This document shows positions 4,028 to 60,033 of a stretch of 60,033 nucleotides of DNA, piece after piece. Each line of letters opens with the position of its first letter. The stretch's first letter is position 1. Below the pieces are notes generated by a model. It had not been told where the DNA came from and did not search any database. It worked only from the letters and a program-made list of their open reading frames with translations. Source of the DNA: a virus. The stretch spans positions 1 to 60,033 of the IMG/VR virus record IMGVR_UViG_3300030104_000540. One strand, 5' to 3'. A program made the position numbers and the translations under genes.

Positions 4028-4234
4028 CTATTCGTGCCAACCTTCGGCTTTCATGGCATTCTCTACACGAGATAGAGAATAACGCACTCCTGTATCTTTA
4101 TAAATGAGTGCTCTAATGTAATGTACAGAGGAATGAGGTACATGAACTGCACGTAAGTCTCCATATTTACGTAAAGATTTGTACGTGTCTGACAAAATGT
4201 CATCCGTATATGTTAGTTTTACTGATTTTTTCAT
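4028..4234 (-). CDS. Small conserved protein (MKKSVKL family), left copy
   Basis: 68 aa from the ATG at 4234; an in-frame TTG nine bases earlier is possible but less likely. A clear paralogue lies at 58459-58668. Both start MKKSVKL, carry a V/I-PHS motif, and end in a helix VENAMKAEGW or VEEAMRAEGW. Each is the first gene of a leftward transcript below a TTGACA/TATAAT promoter, and both share an almost identical start region (ATGAAAAAATCAG). A small DNA-binding or regulatory protein is plausible but not shown. Confidence 0.65.
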   Translation of the reverse strand: MKKSVKLTYTDDILSDTYKSLRKYGDLRAVHVPHSSVHYIRALIYKDTGVRYSLSRVENAMKAEGWHE

Positions 4235-4340
4235 AGATGTCAACTATTATTTTAGTACAGAATGTACATTATACTGTATTACCAAGATTTTTTATACTTA
4301 TAATATGCTACATTTAAGTATTTATTTATTTTTAAAGTGT

Positions 4341-4355
4341 AACAGTTTAACTGTT
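4341..4355. promoter_or_regulatory. Operator-like palindrome at the leftward start site
   Basis: AACAGTT-T-AACTGTT, two perfect 7-bp half-sites around one base. It lies 6 to 20 bases downstream of the -10 box of the leftward promoter, so it covers the expected transcription start. This is the usual place for a repressor to bind. Confidence 0.45.
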
Positions 4356-4361
4356 ATGGTA

Positions 4362-4389
4362 ATTATACTCTTTTTACGCAGCTTGTCAA
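4362..4389 (-). promoter_or_regulatory. Consensus sigma70 promoter, leftward
   Basis: On the complement TTGACA (4384-4389), 16 nt, TATAAT (4362-4367): all twelve hexamer bases match consensus. It faces the 4234-28 gene cluster. In a circular genome it would drive the entire late operon. The second hub has an equivalent at 58803-58831. Confidence 0.85.
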
Positions 4390-4817
4390 CCCCAAAACAA
4401 TTAAATAAGTATAATTTTGTAGTATTTAGTGTGGCAATGTTGCAACTGTTGCATACTTGCAACACTATTTAATGGAGTTATCTATGTGGTTACCACTTCA
4501 ATTTCCTAATCTGTGTATTTATACAAGCATACGTACCCCATAGGGTGGCATGGCTGTCGCCCTCCCCCTCAATCGTGGGCAGACGTGTGCATAATGTCCA
4601 GCCACACGCAGGAATTGAGCCGACCAAATGCTCATTCTCTCTGAGAATGAAAGTGCAATCAGACCAAAACCGACCCCTAACACTCAAACGGAGTGTTAAA
4701 GGTGGAGTTGCCGAGCCAAATGACCATCACAAAGTGATGAATTGGCAAAATTGCCGTTCAAACTACGTTTGGGAGTACAAAAAACCATACCCCCTCTTAA
4801 CAGCGAAGCTGTTACAA

Positions 4818-4831
4818 GTCCGATGTCGGAC
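4818..4831. repeat. Dispersed palindrome GTCCGA-TG-TCGGAC, copy 1
   Basis: Exact copy in the control region, preceded by AA. Two 6-bp half-sites around two bases, the form expected of a dimer-binding site. Confidence 0.85.
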
Positions 4832-4894
4832 AGTCTGCATCATCAGAAACAGATCAATCATAGATAGATTCTCTATCAAAAACTGACGGCAAAA

Positions 4895-5016
4895 TGACTC
4901 CGTTTGAACATTTTTTTATGGTTTCATTTGAAATGTTTTAAGCACCCTGTAACGAAGTGAAGGGTGTTAAAACCTTTCAATTAAATGAAACCAAAAAAAT
5001 GTAACAAACGGAGTCA
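4895..5016. promoter_or_regulatory. 122-nt long hairpin enclosing the ribosome site of the first early gene
   Basis: The outer arms are 12 bp and perfect (4895-4906 with 5005-5016). The next arm (4908-4929 with 4983-5002) pairs throughout except for a 2-nt bulge. The inner arm (about 4930-4948 with 4963-4980) pairs with one mismatch and one bulge. The loop carries AACGAAGTGA. The GGAG Shine-Dalgarno bases (5010-5013), six bases before the 5020 ATG, are paired with CTCC at 4898-4901, so in RNA this would hide the ribosome site. A role as a replication or cruciform element is also possible. Confidence 0.8.
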
Positions 5017-5019
5017 AAC

Positions 5020-5643
5020 ATGAAAAATTCAACAACAACCACTTCCAAATTAAACAACGGTTTAATTCAAAACTTAGCTAAAGCTAAGTCAAATGCTGAA
5101 AAAGGTTCAATTCTCTCTAGAGAGAATACACGTCTACTGTCTCTTGAAAAGAGACAGTTTGAAGCCCAAACTATGTTTGGAGGTTTTTGGTTTTCACTTG
5201 GAAAGCTCATCTCTGATGAGTTGAATGCAAGTGGAAAGTTGAGACTTTCCACAGCTCAGCTTAAAAAGCTGAATATCACTAAAATTGAACGTCAAAGACG
5301 TTCAGATGCTAAACTTTTCTTTGAAAATTATGATGCTTTACAATCTCTTACAAAGAGATTTAATAACGTATCAGCTTTGCTGAAAGAATTTAATAAACAG
5401 AACTCAAAGAGTTCTGAAACATCTACTAAAGTAGATGAAAAGTCATCTTCTAAAGAAGATGTTAAGTCCGATGTCGGACAAAGTGATAACAACGAAGTTG
5501 TTAAAGTAGGTACTTTTCAAGTACCTAATGTAAAGCAAATGGCTGAAGCCATTGTAATGCAAGCCATTGAAAATGGCTTAGAAGTTAAAGAGCTAAAAGC
5601 TCTTAACGCTGAAATTGCTAACCAAATCAAGGCTTTAGCTTAA
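5020..5643 (+). CDS. First early protein, 207 aa, gene composed of hairpins
   Basis: Unrecognised. The product is polar and helical: a basic N-terminal half (LSLEKRQFEAQTMFGGFWFS, then KKLNITKIERQRRSDAKLFF), a Ser/Lys/Asp-rich linker (about residues 125-155) and a C-terminal helical pair (VKQMAEAIVMQAIENG, then LKALNAEIANQIKAL). It is the first gene of the rightward transcript, where phages usually place host-takeover or anti-defence functions. The gene is most unusual at the DNA level: about twenty adjacent stem-loops fill it, nine of them back to back in 5398-5607. Some are in frame with the loop as a GAA codon (for example NNEVV and AIENG). The rightward gene at 59273 sits in the equivalent place and has a similar size and layout, but homology is uncertain. 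Confidence 0.75.
   Translation: MKNSTTTTSKLNNGLIQNLAKAKSNAEKGSILSRENTRLLSLEKRQFEAQTMFGGFWFSLGKLISDELNASGKLRLSTAQLKKLNITKIERQRRSDAKLFFENYDALQSLTKRFNNVSALLKEFNKQNSKSSETSTKVDEKSSSKEDVKSDVGQSDNNEVVKVGTFQVPNVKQMAEAIVMQAIENGLEVKELKALNAEIANQIKALA
5466..5479. repeat. Dispersed palindrome GTCCGA-TG-TCGGAC, copy 2
   Basis: Exact copy inside the 5020 gene, encoding part of the linker (KSDVGQ). It is one of nine consecutive hairpins there. Confidence 0.85.
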
Positions 5644-5648
5644 CCATT

Positions 5649-5711
5649 ACTAACATAGATGTAATACATATTGAATGTATATGAAATATGTATTACATCT
5701 TAAATGTTAGT
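5649..5711. promoter_or_regulatory. Large intergenic hairpin between the first two early genes
   Basis: An inner stem of 16 perfect base pairs (5657-5672 with 5685-5700) and an outer stem of 8 (5649-5656 with 5704-5711), separated by a 3-nt bulge, around a 12-nt loop. No U-run follows, so it is not a standard terminator. RNA processing or mRNA protection is more likely. The ribosome site of the next gene follows directly. Confidence 0.75.
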
Positions 5712-5726
5712 TAGAAAGGAAAAATT

Positions 5727-6017
5727 ATGAAAATTACATACTGTAAACCTGACCCATTACTTGATCCAAAAAATCGCTCTTACTATGTTATACCTAAGTA
5801 TAACCATAGTAAAGTCCACAAAGACTTTGCTGACTACGTCAGCCAGAAAGTAGACGTAGTCTACGTTAATGGCGAAGCCATTGAGTATGGAACAATGGAT
5901 TACTACGTAAAAGATGTAGTTAGCAATTTCCCTGCTCAGTATGAGCAGTTAGAAGTTAATCAGCAAATGAAAGAATTTGCTCAATATGACACAGGATTTA
6001 GACCTGTTATGAAATAA
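5727..6017 (+). CDS. Early protein of unknown function, 96 aa
   Basis: Good AAAGGA ribosome site. The product is acidic and aromatic-rich (MKITYCKPDPLLDPKNRSYY, then YVSQKVDVVYVNGEAIEYG). No family recognised. The gene carries several short hairpins (GCTGAC-TAC-GTCAGC, GTAGAC-GTA-GTCTAC, AATGGC-GAA-GCCATT, CTGCTCA-GTA-TGAGCAG), continuing the pattern of its upstream neighbour. It lies between a long intergenic hairpin and a terminator. Confidence 0.7.
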   Translation: MKITYCKPDPLLDPKNRSYYVIPKYNHSKVHKDFADYVSQKVDVVYVNGEAIEYGTMDYYVKDVVSNFPAQYEQLEVNQQMKEFAQYDTGFRPVMK

Positions 6018-6023
6018 CAGTAA

Positions 6024-6037
6024 GTCCGATGTCGGTC
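6024..6037. repeat. Dispersed palindrome, copy 3 (one mismatch)
   Basis: GTCCGA-TG-TCGGTC; the final arm has T for A. It lies seven bases after the stop of the 5727 gene and just before a terminator. Confidence 0.7.
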
Positions 6038-6048
6038 TTAACAGCAAG

Positions 6049-6078
6049 GCTGTAGCAGTAATGTTACAGCCTTTTTTT
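6049..6078 (+). terminator. Rho-independent terminator
   Basis: Stem GGCTGTA / TACAGCC around a 10-nt loop, followed by seven T. It ends the transcript after the 5727 gene. An alternative AACAGC-AAG-GCTGT hairpin overlaps its left arm and could compete with it. Confidence 0.75.
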
Positions 6079-6101
6079 ATGCCTAAAGAAAGGATACCAT
6101 T

Positions 6102-6305
6102 ATGAGAAATAAATATATACTATCAGTGTATGCAATGTTTGCTTATGCAATGGCTAACATTATCACAGGTTTTTATACATTATCATATGCAAATACCGTT
6201 GTATTTGCTCACATGCAACCATATGATGCGATTGTATGCACGATTAGTGCAATCTTTATTGCATGGGGTACTATGATAATAGGAGTTGTAGTGCTAAAGT
6301 ATTAG
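6102..6305 (+). CDS. Two-pass small membrane protein, 67 aa
   Basis: Ribosome site AAAGGA, then two hydrophobic helices (about residues 6-31 and 40-65) joined by a short polar turn (HMQPYDAI). It is early-expressed, directly after a terminator and before a long AT hairpin. Small early membrane proteins in phages often block superinfection or alter the envelope, but there is no family evidence here. Confidence 0.65.
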   Translation: MRNKYILSVYAMFAYAMANIITGFYTLSYANTVVFAHMQPYDAIVCTISAIFIAWGTMIIGVVVLKY

Positions 6306-6314
6306 TAATATAAC

Positions 6315-6354
6315 AATAAATAATATATATCTATTTATAGATATATTATTTATT
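6315..6354. promoter_or_regulatory. Long AT-only intergenic hairpin
   Basis: A 16-bp stem made only of A, T and one C/G pair (left arm 6315-6332 with a 2-nt bulge, right arm 6339-6354) around a 6-nt loop. It lies between the membrane-protein gene and palindrome copy 4. Confidence 0.65.
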
Positions 6355-6372
6355 TTATATATTACTTATTAA

Positions 6373-6386
6373 GTCCGATGTCGGAC
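6373..6386. repeat. Dispersed palindrome GTCCGA-TG-TCGGAC, copy 4
   Basis: Exact copy, flanked by AA and ATAA, 20 bases before the start of the 6406 gene and just before its ribosome site. Confidence 0.85.
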
Positions 6387-6405
6387 ATAAACAGAAAGGG
6401 TTATT

Positions 6406-7047
6406 ATGTTTAATACAGTTAAAGAAGCATGGGCTGAAGTGGGTGGCTTATCCAAGCCATCTAAAATGCCATCATTTGGTTATTCATTAAGTGCATTTAA
6501 ATGCAAGGTAGGTAGTAAGCTGAGGAATATTGCTAACTCTACATGTAGTGATTGCTATGCATTGAAGGGAAGGTATGTCTTCCCCAATGTACAAGAAGCA
6601 TTGGATAGGAGAATGGATAGGCTATTGAACAATCCTAATTGGATTGAAGCTATGTCATTTTTAATCAATCACTATTCCACTAAAGGTGGAGTGTTTAGGT
6701 GGCATGATAGTGGAGATTTACAATCTCTTGATCACCTACAAAAGATTGTAAAAGTTGCTGAGCTTACACCTAGTGTAAGGCATTGGCTACCAACAAGAGA
6801 GGTAGCAATGGTGCGAGATTACCAAAAGCAATACGGAGAGTTTCCTAGCAACTTAGTTGTTAGGATAAGTGCTACTATGATTAATGGTTTACCCCATAAG
6901 TTTCATAGGCATACTAGCACAGTATCAACAGCCAAAGATTTTGATTTGGGTTGGACTTGTCCTGCTAGTAAACAAGGTAACAAGTGTGACACGTGTCGTG
7001 CTTGTTGGGATAGTAATGTTGAAAATATTACTTACCCTTTACATTAA
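6406..7047 (+). CDS. Gp88-like cysteine-rich phage protein
   Basis: 213 aa. I recognise the mycobacteriophage gene-88 family layout: KMPSFGYSLSAFKCKVGSKL, then CSDCYALKGRY, then FRWHDSGDLQS and VRHWLPTRE, ending in a cysteine cluster (WTCPASKQGNKCDTCRACWD). About seven cysteines, some in C-x2-C pairs, suggest a bound metal or iron-sulphur site. The biochemical role of the family is not established as far as I know. It is widespread in phages as a lone accessory gene. Hairpins continue in the DNA (GAGATT-TAC-AATCTC, CTTACAC-CTA-GTGTAAG). Confidence 0.75.
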   Translation: MFNTVKEAWAEVGGLSKPSKMPSFGYSLSAFKCKVGSKLRNIANSTCSDCYALKGRYVFPNVQEALDRRMDRLLNNPNWIEAMSFLINHYSTKGGVFRWHDSGDLQSLDHLQKIVKVAELTPSVRHWLPTREVAMVRDYQKQYGEFPSNLVVRISATMINGLPHKFHRHTSTVSTAKDFDLGWTCPASKQGNKCDTCRACWDSNVENITYPLH

Positions 7048-7081
7048 GAGTGTTATAGTATATAACATAAACATTAACTAA

Positions 7082-7095
7082 GTCCGATGTCGGAC
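7082..7095. repeat. Dispersed palindrome GTCCGA-TG-TCGGAC, copy 5
   Basis: Exact copy with the same AA / ATAA flanks, seven bases before the AAAGGAG ribosome site of the next gene. Confidence 0.85.
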
Positions 7096-7117
7096 ATAAT
7101 TGAAAGGAGCATATATT

Positions 7118-7390
7118 ATGTTTTTCTTATATTCGTCTAAATTAACTAACGATAAGATGGGAGTAAGACGTAGTCTTATTCTTGAAATTAATGATGTCAA
7201 AGTTATCAATTTTAAAACTATGACATATTGGAGAAAGAGATTGTTCTCTTACTCTAGAACACTCAACAAGCCTGTGGGCTTTACTCAAGGTGATTGCTTT
7301 AACAGTTATCACTTCTTTAACTTCACATTACATGTGGAGAAAAGAAGAAACAGGCAATCTGTGAGAAAGCTGTGGCACTTCGCAGGTTAA
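7118..7390 (+). CDS. Early protein of unknown function, 90 aa
   Basis: The ATG at 7118 is chosen because AAAGGAG lies about eight bases upstream; an in-frame TTG at 7100 would place the ribosome site inside the gene. The product is basic and aromatic (FLYSSKLTNDKMGVRRSLIL, then YHFFNFTLHVEKRRNRQSVR). It could be a small DNA-binding or inhibitor protein; no family recognised. Short hairpins such as TAAGAC-GTA-GTCTTA persist. Confidence 0.65.
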   Translation: MFFLYSSKLTNDKMGVRRSLILEINDVKVINFKTMTYWRKRLFSYSRTLNKPVGFTQGDCFNSYHFFNFTLHVEKRRNRQSVRKLWHFAG

Positions 7391-7394
7391 TGTG

Positions 7395-7550
7395 ATGTCT
7401 AAGATGCGTAACCCTATTGCTAGAATGTTGCACATAGCGACACGCAATAGGGTTATGGGTGTAGACAAAAAGTTTAACAAGAAAAAAGAAAGGCAGAAAA
7501 ATGCAAAGTCAAAACTTAGGAAAGATGCGAGTAAACAAGAAGATGTTTAA
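7395..7550 (+). CDS. 51-aa highly basic mini-protein
   Basis: MSKMRNPIARMLHIATRNRV followed by a Lys-rich tail (KKFNKKKERQKNAKSKLRKD). It overlaps the next mini-gene by 50 bases in another frame. A 10-bp inverted repeat (AACCCTATTG with CAATAGGGTT, about 7410-7455) frames its first codons. Phages often encode such short basic proteins next to each other, and this one may be a nucleic-acid binder. The support is only the open frame and its setting. Confidence 0.5.
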   Translation: MSKMRNPIARMLHIATRNRVMGVDKKFNKKKERQKNAKSKLRKDASKQEDV

Positions 7551-7641
7551 CAAAGACAAAAGAAAAGAGTACAAGCATAACAGACGTTTACAACGTCAGC
7601 TTAAACAAACAACACAACTAAAAGCATGGAGACAAGCATGA
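7501..7641 (+). CDS. 46-aa basic mini-protein
   Basis: AAAGG ribosome site upstream of the ATG. The product is MQSQNLGKMRVNKKMFNKDK and then a Lys/Arg/Gln-rich helix. The stop overlaps the start of the next gene as ATGA, which supports translation. Its start lies inside the preceding mini-gene. Role unknown. Confidence 0.5.
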   Translation: MQSQNLGKMRVNKKMFNKDKRKEYKHNRRLQRQLKQTTQLKAWRQA

Positions 7642-7871
7642 GTGATACACCGACAGTAGCACAGACTAACAGAGAAGCATTGTATGAGATAATGCAATTG
7701 CTAGGCGATGAGTATGAGAGTGGTTACATAGGTAACTATGAGAGATGGGGTGATGAAACCACATCTTACATATGGCATGGCAACAAGAAATATGGTGGCT
7801 ATCGTGGAGAAGACAGCCACAGATTATTAATCACAGCAATACTATTGCTAAAGAAAAAGTTAGGAGAGTAA
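7638..7871 (+). CDS. Unknown early protein, 77 aa
   Basis: The start at 7638 (MSDTPTVAQ) is preferred over an in-frame ATG twelve bases earlier because it forms an ATGA overlap with the previous stop. The product is acidic and tyrosine-rich (GDEYESGYIGNYERWGDE), followed by SHRLLITAILLLKKKLGE, probably a helix. No family recognised. Confidence 0.6.
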   Translation: MSDTPTVAQTNREALYEIMQLLGDEYESGYIGNYERWGDETTSYIWHGNKKYGGYRGEDSHRLLITAILLLKKKLGE

Positions 7872-8856: not shown

Positions 8857-9077
8857 TGGAAGAAGAAATTATTGACATGCTAAACATACAGCATAGAATA
8901 GAAGAGTTAATGCAAGAGGGCAAGGCATCAAAACTCAGAGGGTGGTCAGCGAGAGACATTTCAGATCGCATCACCTCTGAGTGGCGAGACGAGAAAGCAG
9001 GAGAGTATGCTTTCAAGTACATAGCCTACAATTATTCAACAGCTAAGTCCGACATCGGACATAAGAAAGGAGACTAA
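8856..9077 (+). CDS. Unknown small helical protein, 73 aa
   Basis: MEEEIIDMLNIQHRIEELMQ, then a basic segment (KASKLRGWSARDISDRI). The helix-rich charged sequence could fold as a small DNA-mimic or DNA-binding protein. The last codons (KSDIGHKKGD) are encoded by palindrome copy 6 and by the ribosome site of the next gene. Confidence 0.55.
   Translation: MEEEIIDMLNIQHRIEELMQEGKASKLRGWSARDISDRITSEWRDEKAGEYAFKYIAYNYSTAKSDIGHKKGD
9047..9060. repeat. Dispersed palindrome GTCCGA-CA-TCGGAC, copy 6 (opposite orientation)
   Basis: The two central bases are the complement of those in copies 1-5; the half-sites are identical. The same AA / ATAA flanks and a following AAAGGAG are kept, as in copies 4 and 5. 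Confidence 0.85.
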
Positions 9078-55795: not shown

Positions 55796-56447
55796 AGGTT
55801 ACGCTAGGGTCTAGGTAGCTTTCGTGGCTTTCTGCCGAGTGTGTCCACTGAGATGGTGTAAAGTCTGGAGCACCTTCCCCAGTAGCCCACAACGCAGGGC
55901 TTGTTGCACGGACTCTATTATTAGGTAAAGCAACAAAGTTTCCTGTCCACTTCCCTGCATCTAGCAGATATAATACATGCGACTGTTTATGTTGGGCAGG
56001 ATCATCTGCTATGTCGCTATCTGTGTAGTCCACTGTAAATAAGTATTTACCTTTGTAAAACTCTCCACCGATCTTACAAAGCCAAGGGCTTGAACTTACT
56101 CTATCCATCACGACTACACTGTGATTTCTTGATTCACAATCCCAAGGTTGTGCTAAATGATCTTCCATTGGTTCTGACCATTCATCTAGTGGAATGTCAG
56201 CTACGAGTGCTTGTATTGGCATCCTAGCCCACATTGCTCCACCATGTATATTTGTTTCAGGTCCATCTTCAAAGTCAGCTTCGCAACCTGTGAATACTAG
56301 TTGAAAGCTAAGTGACCTATCAGGTATTGTATTAACTGCAAATACCATCGCATGTAAAAACTCTCCGTGATACTGCTGATGGTTTGACGTAAACTCTTTC
56401 CGTACCCAACAATGAAAATGGGGTACGTTACTTATGAGATACGGCAT
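55749..56447 (-). CDS. Highly conserved marine-phage protein, 232 aa
   Basis: MPYLISNVPHFHCWVRKEFT, FAVNTIPDRSLSFQLVFTGC, DEWSEPMEDHLAQPWDCESR, CKIGGEFYKGKYLFTVDYTD and ALWATGEGAPDFTPSQWTHS are patterns that I recall as nearly unchanged in many marine podoviruses. Function unknown; a virion-associated enzyme or assembly protein would explain the strong conservation. The first nine codons lie within the 75-bp repeat, and the start overlaps the mini-gene stop. Confidence 0.72.
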   Translation of the reverse strand: MPYLISNVPHFHCWVRKEFTSNHQQYHGEFLHAMVFAVNTIPDRSLSFQLVFTGCEADFEDGPETNIHGGAMWARMPIQALVADIPLDEWSEPMEDHLAQPWDCESRNHSVVVMDRVSSSPWLCKIGGEFYKGKYLFTVDYTDSDIADDPAQHKQSHVLYLLDAGKWTGNFVALPNNRVRATSPALWATGEGAPDFTPSQWTHSAESHESYLDPSVTFDNLYNDKKQKKKRP

Positions 56448-56494
56448 TATCTACGTCTAGCAGCTCCACCTCTAGCATAGCCTTTTTTCTTTTT
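56420..56494. repeat. 75-bp perfect direct repeat, right copy
   Basis: Identical to 1-75. It covers the start of the 232-aa gene and the end of the KKKGYARGG mini-gene. Confidence 0.95.
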
Positions 56495-56578
56495 ACCCAT
56501 GCCACCACCCATCATTTTAGGCTTCATAGCACCACCTTTAGCCATACCTTTTTTCTTTTTACCTTTATGCATTGGCAT
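56447..56578 (-). CDS. 43-aa Gly/Lys/Arg-rich mini-protein, right copy
   Basis: MPMHKGKKKKGMAKGGAMKP and a KKKKGYARGG tail, paralogous to the 28-156 product (about three quarters of positions the same by eye). The upstream neighbours differ completely from those of the left copy. Confidence 0.7.
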   Translation of the reverse strand: MPMHKGKKKKGMAKGGAMKPKMMGGGMGKKKKGYARGGAARRR

Positions 56579-56592
56579 ATTACATTCTCCTA

Positions 56593-56850
56593 TTATGCTC
56601 TTGATCGAACCTTACCTGCAGTTTTTGTTCTTGCAAAAGATCGGTTTCTTCTTACAGATGAGATACCTAGATTATTCCATCTATTATCTCTTGGATTACC
56701 GTTTCTATGTGTAACATCTTTACCTGTAAGATTTACTCCACGTTTTTTCATAGCGTTACGTGCAGCATTCCGACTATCTCTACGTTTTACTTGTTCAGGT
56801 CTACTGTGATAATTATCATATTCTTTACGGTAATTTCTTTTATAAGCCAT
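56593..56850 (-). CDS. Small HNH-like protein, 85 aa
   Basis: A basic N-terminus (YRKEYDNYHSRPEQVKRRDS) leads to DVTHRNGNPRDNRWNNLGIS, which resembles the HNH/treble-clef nuclease turn with His, Asn, Gly-Asn and Asn-Leu positions. Without zinc cysteines it may be a degenerate HNH or a DNA-binding protein. Common in phages. Confidence 0.6.
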   Translation of the reverse strand: MAYKRNYRKEYDNYHSRPEQVKRRDSRNAARNAMKKRGVNLTGKDVTHRNGNPRDNRWNNLGISSVRRNRSFARTKTAGKVRSRA

Positions 56851-57812
56851 TAATTTTTCTTTAGATAGGCTATTAATTCTTTTTTACTTGGTCTTCTACC
56901 TAACTGTTTTTCTAATTTATTTTCAGCATCTATTTCTGCTAGTCTAACTTTTGCTGGACCTTTTCCACCTACTATAAGATTAAACATCCTACCACTACTA
57001 CCCCCATTAGTTTTCTTTTTACCATTAAATAATTTTGGTTTAGGTTTTGGTAGTACTATAGTTACTGAAGATTTAGATTTAGGTTTTGTTTTAGGTTGAG
57101 AGACTTTAGATTTTTTTGTTTTAATTAACTCTTTATCAGACTTTCTTTCTTTTTGACCACCTTTAGTGCTTCTAACTACTATTCCTTCAGTTATTGTGCT
57201 TTTTTCTATTTTAGAAGGTTTTAACGATGCTAATATTGCTCCAATAGCTATACCTATTCCACCTGCTCCTGCAACAGCAGTTAAAGGATGTTTTCTTATC
57301 ATACCTCTTATAGTATCTGTTATCTTTGACATACTTACATTAGGTGCTTTAGCTTTAACTTTTTTAGCTAGGTTGTTTATTTTTTGTTGAACACTTAATG
57401 TTTTAGTTTTAGTTACAGTTTTGGGTTTACCACCTGTAGCACTACCTACTTTAACATTTGGCTTAACACCTATTTTAGTTGTAGTTTTGGATTTACTACC
57501 TGTAGCACTACCTATTTTAGATTTACTACCTGTAGCACTACCTACTTTAACTTTTGTTTTAGTTGTAGTTTTATTTATTTTCATTCCGGGATTATTAGGA
57601 CCTCCGGGTGTTTTACCTAGTCCTGCAACAGATGATTTTTTTACGTTAAGAAGAGAAGTTAGTTTAACTTTGGATAACATATTTTTAGGCACAGCATTTT
57701 GAATTTTAAAATTTTTAATACCTAACCTTCTCATTTCTCCGGTAATCTCAGCTTTTGTTGCTCTTATATATAATGTGCTTCGACCCGGAATAGATACTGG
57801 ATATACTGCCAT
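56850..57812 (-). CDS. Lys/Ser/Thr-rich repetitive protein with a hydrophobic segment, 320 aa
   Basis: A folded N-terminus (YPVSIPGRSTLYIRATKAEI, then MRRLGIKNFKIQNAV) precedes Lys-rich low complexity with GSATG-x-K repeats (three copies, about residues 90-130). A Gly/Ala hydrophobic stretch (LTAVAGAGGIGIAIGAILAS) follows, and a terminal QLGRRPSKKELIAYLKK helix. An internal virion or DNA-binding protein would fit. Confidence 0.6.
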   Translation of the reverse strand: MAVYPVSIPGRSTLYIRATKAEITGEMRRLGIKNFKIQNAVPKNMLSKVKLTSLLNVKKSSVAGLGKTPGGPNNPGMKINKTTTKTKVKVGSATGSKSKIGSATGSKSKTTTKIGVKPNVKVGSATGGKPKTVTKTKTLSVQQKINNLAKKVKAKAPNVSMSKITDTIRGMIRKHPLTAVAGAGGIGIAIGAILASLKPSKIEKSTITEGIVVRSTKGGQKERKSDKELIKTKKSKVSQPKTKPKSKSSVTIVLPKPKPKLFNGKKKTNGGSSGRMFNLIVGGKGPAKVRLAEIDAENKLEKQLGRRPSKKELIAYLKKN

Positions 57813-58459
57813 TATTTACTCCTTGTTATGTTTTTATACGCTTTCATTCCTTTAGGACCACTCTCACGTAATGCTTTTAGTCCGGGATTGTCTGTAACAT
57901 TACCACCTGCTACATACATATGTTTCTTTCCACTTGACATACCACCATATGCCATTTTTTCTACATTCTTTTTAAGAATAGCACCACCTTTATTATTTCC
58001 AAATAGCTCTCCTTGGAACTTATTTTTAACAAATCTAGCACCGATTAAGGCAGCTTCACTTAAAGTTGGTATTTTTCTATCTGATGATCCATATTCACCT
58101 GATCTTAAAAGTTCATCTTTTATATCCTTTAAAGACCTTGCTGCTTCCCTTTTGTATTTATTAGGCTTACTAGGTGGTGCATCGACAGTTTTCTTAGGTG
58201 GATCACCTCTATCTTTTCTATTTAAACTTAGTGCTTGTTGTTTAATAACATCAAGTATTCTTTGTCTTCCACCACCTAGTTTTGTATCACCTACAATTTT
58301 ATCAAGAACTTGATTTAATTTCTTTTTTAAAACATTCTTTCTGCTTTTATTTGCATCATTACTAGGTTCTTCCTCTAATCTATAAAGTTCTGCTTGGGCA
58401 CTAACACCCATTTTCTCTAATTTTTTATCACTTGGTGTAGCTACTTGTTTCTGTGTCAT
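57812..58459 (-). CDS. Basic protein of unknown function, 215 aa
   Basis: MTQKQVATPSDKKLEKMGVS, then helices with AALIGARFVKNKFQGELFGN and a Gly-rich tail (MAYGGMSSGKKHMYVAGGNV) that carries the YAxGG-like tag seen in the left module. It overlaps neighbours at single bases. Unknown. Confidence 0.58.
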   Translation of the reverse strand: MTQKQVATPSDKKLEKMGVSAQAELYRLEEEPSNDANKSRKNVLKKKLNQVLDKIVGDTKLGGGRQRILDVIKQQALSLNRKDRGDPPKKTVDAPPSKPNKYKREAARSLKDIKDELLRSGEYGSSDRKIPTLSEAALIGARFVKNKFQGELFGNNKGGAILKKNVEKMAYGGMSSGKKHMYVAGGNVTDNPGLKALRESGPKGMKAYKNITRSK

Positions 58460-58668
58460 TATTCATCCCTTTCTTTCCAACCTTCAGCCCTCATTGCTTC
58501 CTCTACATGCTTTAAAGTAAATTTTCTACCGTAATGGGCTTCAACAGCCTGTCGCACGTAGAAGACATCACTATGAGGAATATGCAATCGGTCTAAGGAA
58601 TTAGTACGTATAGCATTATAAAATGCATCTAACACATTATCTGTATATAGTTTTACTGATTTTTTCAT
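58459..58668 (-). CDS. Small conserved protein (MKKSVKL family), right copy
   Basis: 69 aa from ATG at 58668, paralogue of the 4028-4234 product: MKKSVKLYTDN, LHIPHSDVFYVRQAVEAHYG and VEEAMRAEGW. First gene below the right consensus promoter, mirroring the left copy. Confidence 0.65.
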   Translation of the reverse strand: MKKSVKLYTDNVLDAFYNAIRTNSLDRLHIPHSDVFYVRQAVEAHYGRKFTLKHVEEAMRAEGWKERDE

Positions 58669-58802
58669 AAATGTCAAGTAATTATAGTACGTAGGGTTAA
58701 TATTTATTAAAAACCACTTAATATGTACATTTATAGTGTTTTTTATAACTTAATATATTAAACACTTATAGTGTTACACTGTTTGTGTTCTAGTTATACA
58801 TA

Positions 58803-58831
58803 ATTATAGCCGATTTTTAGTCATCTGTCAA
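58803..58831 (-). promoter_or_regulatory. Consensus sigma70 promoter, leftward
   Basis: TTGACA (58826-58831 on the complement), 17 nt, TATAAT (58803-58808): twelve of twelve bases and ideal spacing. It drives the 58668 gene and, with no strong terminator seen until past the capsid, could drive the whole late operon. Confidence 0.87.
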
Positions 58832-59097
58832 GAAAAAAATTAAAATACTTTACTTTTAGTGTTATCACTTGCCTTTGTGGTTTACAATGCATTTTCCTAA
58901 TCTGTTGCAGTGTACATATACGTAACGTGTACGTGGGGGGTGGCAGTGGCATGGGGTGTGTATGAGCCGATAGTTAGGTAGGTAGCTGTAAAAATAGCAT
59001 TTTTTAGACATATTTAGTGCTAAATAGACGTATTATTAGGATTATAGGTTAACTGTTAGTGTATCAATTGCTTTTTATACACTGTTTTTAATGAATG

Positions 59098-59114
59098 GGT
59101 TAGAAATTCTAACC
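59098..59114. repeat. 17-bp palindrome GGTTAGAAATTCTAACC, copy 1
   Basis: Two 8-bp half-sites around one base, 80 bases before the rightward promoter. The same 17 bases occur at 59686-59702. Confidence 0.8.
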
Positions 59115-59193
59115 GAATTATGCAATGTAGGTGTATAACATATCGTCTGTAAGCTATATATACACCCATATTTAAAAAAATATTATTATTAAG

Positions 59194-59223
59194 TTGACTT
59201 TGTTTTATTTTTCTGTGCATAAT
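59194..59223 (+). promoter_or_regulatory. Sigma70-like promoter for the last gene
   Basis: TTGACT (59194-59199), 18 nt, CATAAT (59218-59223): ten of twelve bases. It would start a transcript about 40 bases before the 59273 ATG. Confidence 0.5.
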
Positions 59224-59272
59224 ACAGTTATTGATAGGCAATCATGCCATCATGTATAACAAAGGAATTGTT

Positions 59273-59917
59273 ATGTTAAATATTATTAAAGGTTTTGTAG
59301 CACCTAAAGCTACTCAAGAGCGTGAATCATTTACTATTGTTTCTAATTACTTTAATTCATTGGATACAATTAGAGGGAATGAGGAACATTTTATTTATGA
59401 AGGCAATCTTATTAATTCTATTAAGAATGTTAAAGGTAAGAAAAAAGAAAAGAGAATGAATGATTTAAACCTTTATAAATATACTAAATATGAAAGGCAT
59501 TACTTAGGTAAGATTGCCAACAATAAAAAAGCATTTTTGGCTTATATTGCTAGTTATCCAACGGATACAAGGCTACCTAGTTTTGAGACTATTTATAATA
59601 ATAGTGTTAAAGAATATGACGAAAATGGTAAGAAGAAACCTTCTAACCCAATTATGACAGGTGAGAAGAATACACCTAAAAATCAGGTTAGAAATTCTAA
59701 CCCAAAAGTTGACAAGTCAGAAGATAAGACAACAGTAGATTATAAAGATAATCATGAGACTTTAGAGGAAGCTGTTGAGACTTGTGTTAGTATGCTTTTA
59801 GATTTTGGTGCAACTGAAGCTGAGATTGCTAACCTAGTTATTAAGTCATTACAGAAAAGAAATAAAAAGTTAATGACTACATCAAATAAAAAGACAATAG
59901 CTTTTAAAGTAGCTTAA
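59273..59917 (+). CDS. Rightward early-type protein, 214 aa
   Basis: The ATG at 59273 follows AAAGGA by six bases. Charged, helical protein: MLNIIKGFVAPKATQERESF, NVKGKKKEKRMNDLNLYKYT, a low-complexity middle (KKKPSNPIMTGEKNTPKNQV) and a C-terminal helix pair (EEAVETCVSMLLDFGATEAE, then IANLVIKSLQKR). Size, polar linker, C-terminal helices and place next to a control region mirror the 5020 gene, so it may be its counterpart. Function unknown. Confidence 0.65.
   Translation: MLNIIKGFVAPKATQERESFTIVSNYFNSLDTIRGNEEHFIYEGNLINSIKNVKGKKKEKRMNDLNLYKYTKYERHYLGKIANNKKAFLAYIASYPTDTRLPSFETIYNNSVKEYDENGKKKPSNPIMTGEKNTPKNQVRNSNPKVDKSEDKTTVDYKDNHETLEEAVETCVSMLLDFGATEAEIANLVIKSLQKRNKKLMTTSNKKTIAFKVA
59686..59702. 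repeat. 17-bp palindrome GGTTAGAAATTCTAACC, copy 2
   Basis: Identical to copy 1 but inside the coding sequence of the 59273 gene (linker region). A partial TTCTAACC-CAATTATG stretch nearby (59641) resembles the right flank of copy 1 (TTCTAACCGAATTATG). Confidence 0.8.
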
Positions 59918-59928
59918 CTAATATATCA

Positions 59929-59962
59929 AAAGTGAGAGCAGAAATGTTCTCACTTTTTTTTT
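59929..59962 (+). terminator. Rho-independent terminator
   Basis: Stem AAGTGAGA / TCTCACTT around a 10-nt loop, followed by eight or more T, 12 bases after the stop of the 59273 gene. A textbook intrinsic terminator. Confidence 0.88.
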
Positions 59963-60033
59963 GTCTTTTTTTTTATTTTTTTTTTGTGCAACTACTATCA
60001 TGGGGGGGGTGAGATATGCTTTGCAACTACTAT
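59963..60033. other. Low-complexity window end
   Basis: Runs of T (eight to eleven), a run of eight or more G, and a GCAACTACTAT direct repeat (about 59988 and 60023). No gene. The homopolymers could be real or base-calling/assembly noise at a contig end. Confidence 0.6.

Follow-up and report, generated by a model that had tools for sequence, protein, structure and literature searches.

Processing of a hairpin by RNase III controls translation in the N leader of phage lambda (pL transcript). T7 carries its early RNase III sites R0.3 to R1.3 as long bulged hairpins between the early genes, and N4 possesses a giant virion RNA polymerase of ~3,500 aa. The early promoters of N4 are DNA hairpins with small stems and 3-nt loops, often GNA (PMC4496689). 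HMO-2011-type phages are described as dominant and widespread in the ocean (PMC9038755). Hairpins, promoters and terminators do not come up in the text of that paper, and the annotation of the first early gene of these phages is 'hypothetical'.

Here we describe the region around this gene in a viral contig of 60,033 bases, which was analysed as a whole (the window). Its DNA polymerase shows 62-63% identity with those of the Roseobacter phages CRP-1 and CRP-345 and the SAR116 phage HMO-2011, and its rightward replication and leftward structural modules are arranged as in these three phages. Based on both matches the window was assigned to the HMO-2011-type marine podophages. Downstream of a divergent intergenic region, where the rightward and presumably early genes begin, stands a long hairpin. 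Like the hairpin of the lambda N leader, it immediately precedes the ribosome site of the first early gene, but no family match ties gene 1 to N. With the T7 RNase III sites the hairpins of the window share that they are long, bulged and located between early genes near the next start codon; an apex motif, in contrast, was found in the HMO-2011-type group. Neither T7 nor lambda shows the array of mini-hairpins seen in the window (at most 2 and 5 per kb, respectively). The elements of the hairpin and the gene behind it are:

4895..5016, plus strand: long hairpin with 51 pairs, directly 5' of gene 1 (folding; architecture kept in 19 of 19 loci folded)
4898..4901, plus strand: CTCC, anti-Shine-Dalgarno in the outer left arm (sequence, folding)
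4949..4960, plus strand: apex GUAACGAAGUGA, a variant of the GAA...UGA apex of HMO-2011, L096 and L097 (apex comparison)
4980..4983, plus strand: right-arm bulge AUUA (folding)
5010..5013, plus strand: GGAG, Shine-Dalgarno (SD) of gene 1 in the outer right arm (sequence, folding)
5020..5643, plus strand: gene 1, 207 aa, first early gene with a mini-hairpin-rich coding sequence (homologues CRP-1 gp01, CRP-345 gp01 and HMO-2011 gp74)

The left arm begins at 4895 (TGACTCCGTTTG) and the right arm stops at 5016 (CAAACGGAGTCA), leaving 3 nt to the ATG of gene 1 at 5020. An initial annotation of this DNA had placed a 122-nt element three bases before the start codon, and its coordinates are exact; the figure of about 45 paired bases given there is a slight undercount if pairs were meant. 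The minimum free energy predicted for 4880-5040 is -56.3 kcal/mol compared to -25.6 +/- 3.5 in dinucleotide shuffles (z -8.8), and none of 200 shuffles was as stable. For the 125 nt upstream of the ATG z amounts to -10.0 with all 51 pairs, while the control, 28 segments of 125 nt taken at even spacing from the same strand, has a mean z of -0.9. The fold also bears out the earlier proposal that CTCC pairs with the ribosome site: GGAG is fully paired and its unpaired probability is 0.00. The bulge AUUA is a possible processing site.

A search of Rfam with positions 4200-7700 of the window together with L092, L093 and L115 gave no family at the gathering threshold; look-alikes of miRNA precursors were far below threshold and were rejected as chance matches. 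An intrinsic terminator at 4895-5016 was rejected as well, the hairpin being followed by AACATG without a T run and being absent from the list of the terminator scan. An assembly or mobile-element artefact was rejected because other contigs and cultured phages have a hairpin at this same place, built from unrelated stems.

A long hairpin 5' of gene 1 was found in all 19 first-gene loci that were folded, including the cultured phages CRP-1, CRP-345 and HMO-2011. It spans 60-122 nt with 25-51 pairs (z -4.5 to -10) and ends 0-11 nt before gene 1, and the stem sequences are mostly unrelated between clades. Two irregularities recur within the hairpins: the left arm is interrupted by a bulge or an internal loop, and the right arm by a short bulge made up mostly of A/U. 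The window clade and the Roseobacter-phage clade also have a C-U mismatch. In the window clade (window, L006, L096 and L097; three divergent stems) GGAG is fully paired, and its pairing with CTCC is kept in the window, L096 and L097 with differing flanks. The clade of L127, L131 and L134 pairs AAGG in the hairpin. The Roseobacter-phage clade pairs no more than part of its SD, so the universal feature is a long hairpin abutting the SD and not the hiding of the SD. Hence the translational switch suggested in the initial annotation gains from a hairpin fixed in position in every locus and from the paired GGAG of the window clade, but not as a general rule. Covariation in homologues, likewise suggested there as a check, was approached by a single MAFFT alignment (Roseobacter-phage clade), which is partly misaligned and contains four pairs with double changes; the comparison across clades was used instead.

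The long hairpins of the window, HMO-2011, L096 and L097 have the apex form GAA[YA]...[AR]UGA in common, which could represent tandem G-A mismatches stacked on the stem. In place of a covariance model, for which the alignment misplaced the apex, we scanned 1.77 Mb for this pattern atop an unbroken stem of 9 or more pairs. The scan yielded nine distinct hairpins, all of them early-sense and none antisense; as the pattern was defined on some of the scanned sequences, this ratio is descriptive and no blind test. Where gene 1 was mapped, the apex hairpins are located ~650-1400 nt after its start; the one in L028 is upstream of a 210-aa gene 1 homologue. Since the apex is asymmetric, its occurrence on one strand suggests that RNA matters, or at any rate a single strand. 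One of these hairpins lies in the window between gene 1 and gene 2, where the pairs are kept by double compensatory changes between the window and L006. Neither this second long hairpin nor the mini-hairpin array (~4.6 to 7.6 kb) had been part of the initial annotation:

5649..5711, plus strand: second long hairpin, 5' of gene 2, with apex GAAUGUAUAUGA at 5673 (folding, apex scan)
5727..6017, plus strand: gene 2, 96 aa (mini-hairpins above codon shuffles)
4632..7597, plus strand: mini-hairpin array, stems of 6-10 bp and loops of 3-4 nt, densest in gene 1 (stem-loop counts)

Perfect mini-hairpins occur 40 times within 4301-7700 (11.8 per kb) as compared to 1.1 per kb elsewhere. If loops of up to 5 nt are counted, 24 fall within 5001-6000 where 1.4 are expected. 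The 624 nt of gene 1 hold 18 mini-hairpins versus a mean of 1.6 and a maximum of 7 in synonymous-codon shuffles; stems of at least 5 bp number 21, follow each other at a spacing of 26.9 +/- 5.1 nt and cover 371 of the 624 nt. Gene 2 exceeds its own codon shuffles too, the polymerase gene does not. The stems are all different in sequence and the loops are of many types, with GNA as the commonest triloop class (50 of 173 triloops, the complement TNC accounting for 19).

The array is not restricted to the window. Twelve of 13 gene 1 homologues beat all 200 codon shuffles, the exception being CRP-345, whose count was reached once. Moreover, gene 1 folds locally with lower energy than its codon shuffles in 18 of 18 homologues, with sense z values from -2.2 to -11.7. 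In most relatives with gene 1 the mini-hairpin density peaks at or just after this gene and drops over the next 3 kb; L114, L120, L121 and L128 possess gene 1 with few perfect mini-hairpins inside. No array is present in CRP-603, HTVC033P and CRP-3 (maximum 3-5 per kb), and a gene 1 profile search finds nothing in them.

Between the window and L006 stems changed at 8 of 351 sites and linkers at 122 of 955, so that stems evolve ~5-6x more slowly. In most of the pairs that were compared, double Watson-Crick changes are more frequent than in the control. Of the stems with a single mismatch, more carry G-T (G-U in RNA) than A-C, 33:7 after removal of near-duplicates, compared to 32:27 in the rest of the same contigs (Fisher p 0.005). 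The excess of G-U and the preference of GNA over TNC (50:19) point to a role of the sense strand. By folding energy gene 1 stands out to the same degree on either strand, and energy alone separates no strand; the case for selection on the sense strand is built on the mispair ratio, the bias in the loops and the apex. The mini-hairpins in gene 1 and its neighbours are thus kept by selection, apparently on the sense strand. The strand evidence would also fit single-stranded DNA of the sense strand.

We tentatively interpret the element as a hairpin of the early leader RNA that exerts post-transcriptional control, within a wider programme of RNA structure, a reading to which we give slightly less than even confidence, the way of opening and the roles of the mini-hairpins included. 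By analogy, our best guess is a translation or processing switch resembling the lambda N leader, with mini-hairpins that structure the early mRNA. The early transcript would contain the whole hairpin including its left arm, and the folded hairpin would keep ribosomes from entering at gene 1. Host RNase III or an apex-recognising protein would be the most likely agents to cut or remodel the hairpin, which would remove the left arm and open the site. The mini-hairpins would keep the otherwise naked early mRNA structured and could shield it against Rho loading or single-strand-specific RNases, or form a platform for an RNA-binding protein.

Control by a hairpin ahead of the first early gene is familiar in kind; the divergent, apex-marked version seen here is a new form of it. 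It is nearly an even question, with the balance slightly against, whether the first early genes are shaped via codon choice into a near-continuous string of RNA hairpins (roughly one per 27 nt) and combined with apex-marked long hairpins, a coating of the mRNA with a dedicated function that would be undescribed for dsDNA phages. Amino-acid choices probably contribute to the string as well. In the open-licence literature we found neither a dsDNA phage described with a hairpin-beaded coding sequence nor an account of hairpin arrays in phage early regions. The conserved leader hairpin offers a concrete handle on how infection switches on, and the array represents selection on nucleic-acid structure within a protein-coding gene that is dense enough to govern codon choice. 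The cultured phages CRP-1 and HMO-2011 make the array testable.

The main rival assumes an early promoter on the left shoulder of the hairpin, such that the mRNA would start inside the left arm. A 5'-terminal stem-loop would then stabilise the message and leave the ribosome site free, and the outer inverted repeat would be a DNA regulatory site overlying the promoter. Nine of the 19 loci indeed carry TTGAC[AT] at the hairpin base (-109 to -120), a box that occurs once elsewhere in the 720 nt upstream, followed in the left arm of L119, L121 and HMO-2011 by the -10-like hexamers TATAAT, TATATT or TATCTT. In these nine relatives transcripts may start inside the left arm and go without its outer part. 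However, some of the spacings are poor (15 nt), and there is no such promoter at the hairpin base of the window, L006, L096 and L097, precisely the clade in which the SD is fully hidden. Starts inside the hairpin, which the initial annotation had named as the case against its own reading, are possible for part of the relatives, with no such box in the window. The array also continues upstream of the long hairpin (4632-4877), which suggests that the left arm belongs to the same RNA. Given this extension and the missing TTGAC[AT] box, we think that transcription runs through the left arm in the window clade, and we regard the promoter on the left shoulder, together with the functions attached to it, as possible but rather unlikely. 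A different view dispenses with a nuclease: the gene 1 protein or another RNA-binding protein would bind the long hairpin and the mini-hairpins and repress its own message. This would agree with the co-occurrence of array and gene 1, both of which CRP-603, HTVC033P and CRP-3 lack, with the conserved apex and with a conserved arginine-rich stretch in the gene 1 protein (IDRRRRSEA). Co-occurrence may reflect only shared ancestry, though, and the protein has no known domain (no Pfam or PHROG family) and an AlphaFold model of low confidence (pLDDT 54), too poor for a fold search; we consider such autoregulation doubtful.

The hairpins might also act as DNA, either as cruciforms extruded by supercoiling or as single-stranded hairpins at a promoter or origin, as in the early promoters of N4 or an origin inside a gene. 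The abundance of GNA triloops would fit, as GNA favours extrusion of the N4 promoter hairpins (PMC4496689), and so would the location in a divergent control region where palindromes with GTCC half-sites recur. Both sets of hairpins have small stems and lie in the early region, but N4 has three DNA promoter hairpins with conserved bases, whereas the window has dozens with variable stems, inside coding sequence and with a bias to G-U mispairs. Promoters of the N4 type were rejected, as the largest ORF of the window encodes 1154 aa and leaves no gene for a giant virion RNA polymerase, and the mini-hairpins have no stem bases in common and many types of loop. If both DNA strands mattered, neither the unequal mispairs nor an apex on one strand would be expected. 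The origin-type cruciform offered in the initial annotation is disfavoured by the same two observations, and an RNA element fits better; a role as DNA hairpins seems very unlikely to us. Finally, the mini-hairpins could be functionless by-products of template switching during replication, which perfects imperfect inverted repeats. Stems that are perfect, varied in sequence and limited to one region would be in line with this process. Regular loops and spacing, the slower evolution of stems than linkers, the unequal G-T and A-C mispairs and the recurrence of the array at gene 1 in divergent relatives speak so clearly against it that we give it hardly any credence.

Homologues of gene 1, many of them from IMG/VR contigs, show 21-30% identity to the window protein, and only L006 is close (92%). 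The homologue of HMO-2011 was assigned as gp74 by position and alignment; the annotated gp01 of that phage was rejected as a candidate. Upstream of gene 1 and between the following genes two further conserved elements were noted:

4505..4517, plus strand: CCTAATCTGTGTA, the most conserved leader block, followed by a C-rich stretch (leader comparison)
4818..4831, no strand assigned: palindrome GTCCGATGTCGGAC, with copies at 5466 (in gene 1), 6373 and 7082 and an inverted one at 9047 (sequence comparison)

The leader block has the consensus CCT[AG]ATCTGTGTA, and the stretch behind it consists of 31-43% C, which could load Rho. The palindrome follows the pattern GTCC[AG]A(N2)T[CT]GGAC (GTCCGACAGCGGAC in HMO-2011) and is present in 3-8 copies in most phages checked; L096 has no exact copy. 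Its sites are located upstream of gene 1, mostly also inside it, where they encode S-[DN]-V-G, and between later early genes. The variant of the half-site is uniform per genome and differs between genomes, a pattern that would resemble sites read by a co-evolving protein.

Leaders of CRP-1 (L092), HMO-2011 (L093), L113, L115 and L119 contain a hairpin with a conserved loop, CAACTG-TTATGGAAT-CAGTTG, which is absent from the leaders of the window clade and might be an RNA site to which a protein binds. CTCTTTA in the CRP-1 leader was at first read as boxA, but this reading was given up; the motif is part of a mini-hairpin whose stem changes in step in L113. A non-systematic inspection yielded no nut boxA or boxB. 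In HMO-2011 (L093/L008), L097, L113, L114, L121 and L135, C-GGA-G mini-hairpins are found at the SDs of several early genes and end 0-4 nt before the ATG. They recall the targets of T4 RegB (PMC3014915); the SD of gene 1 in the window sits in the long stem instead. A terminator-like hairpin of 12 pairs with a T run is located at 6046-6073, between gene 2 and the next early gene, and for this reason early transcription may be attenuated there. The early gene at 6406-7047 matches Pfam GP88 (PF17338) with an E value of 2e-30. On the minus strand, a perfect match to TTGACA-16-TATAAT at 4362-4389 is directed at the leftward genes.

The right end of the window repeats parts of its left-end region: 56420-56581 is 85% identical to 1-159 and 58639-58690 is 84% identical to 4202-4258. 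This gives the right end (56420-60033) the look of the corresponding region from a related phage, and two relatives may be joined in the contig as a chimera or in tandem. A similar case is seen in IMGVR_UViG_3300029448_000003 (L028 and L029; 110,914 bases), in which the polymerase query matches two places with 70% and 66% identity, suggesting two related phages in one contig. At the position expected for gene 1 of the second phage in the right end of the window there is a rightward gene, 59273-59917, without a Pfam or PHROG family. A palindrome, GGTTAGAAATTCTAACC, is placed upstream of this gene (59098) as well as within it (59686), in parallel to the GTCC-palindrome of gene 1.
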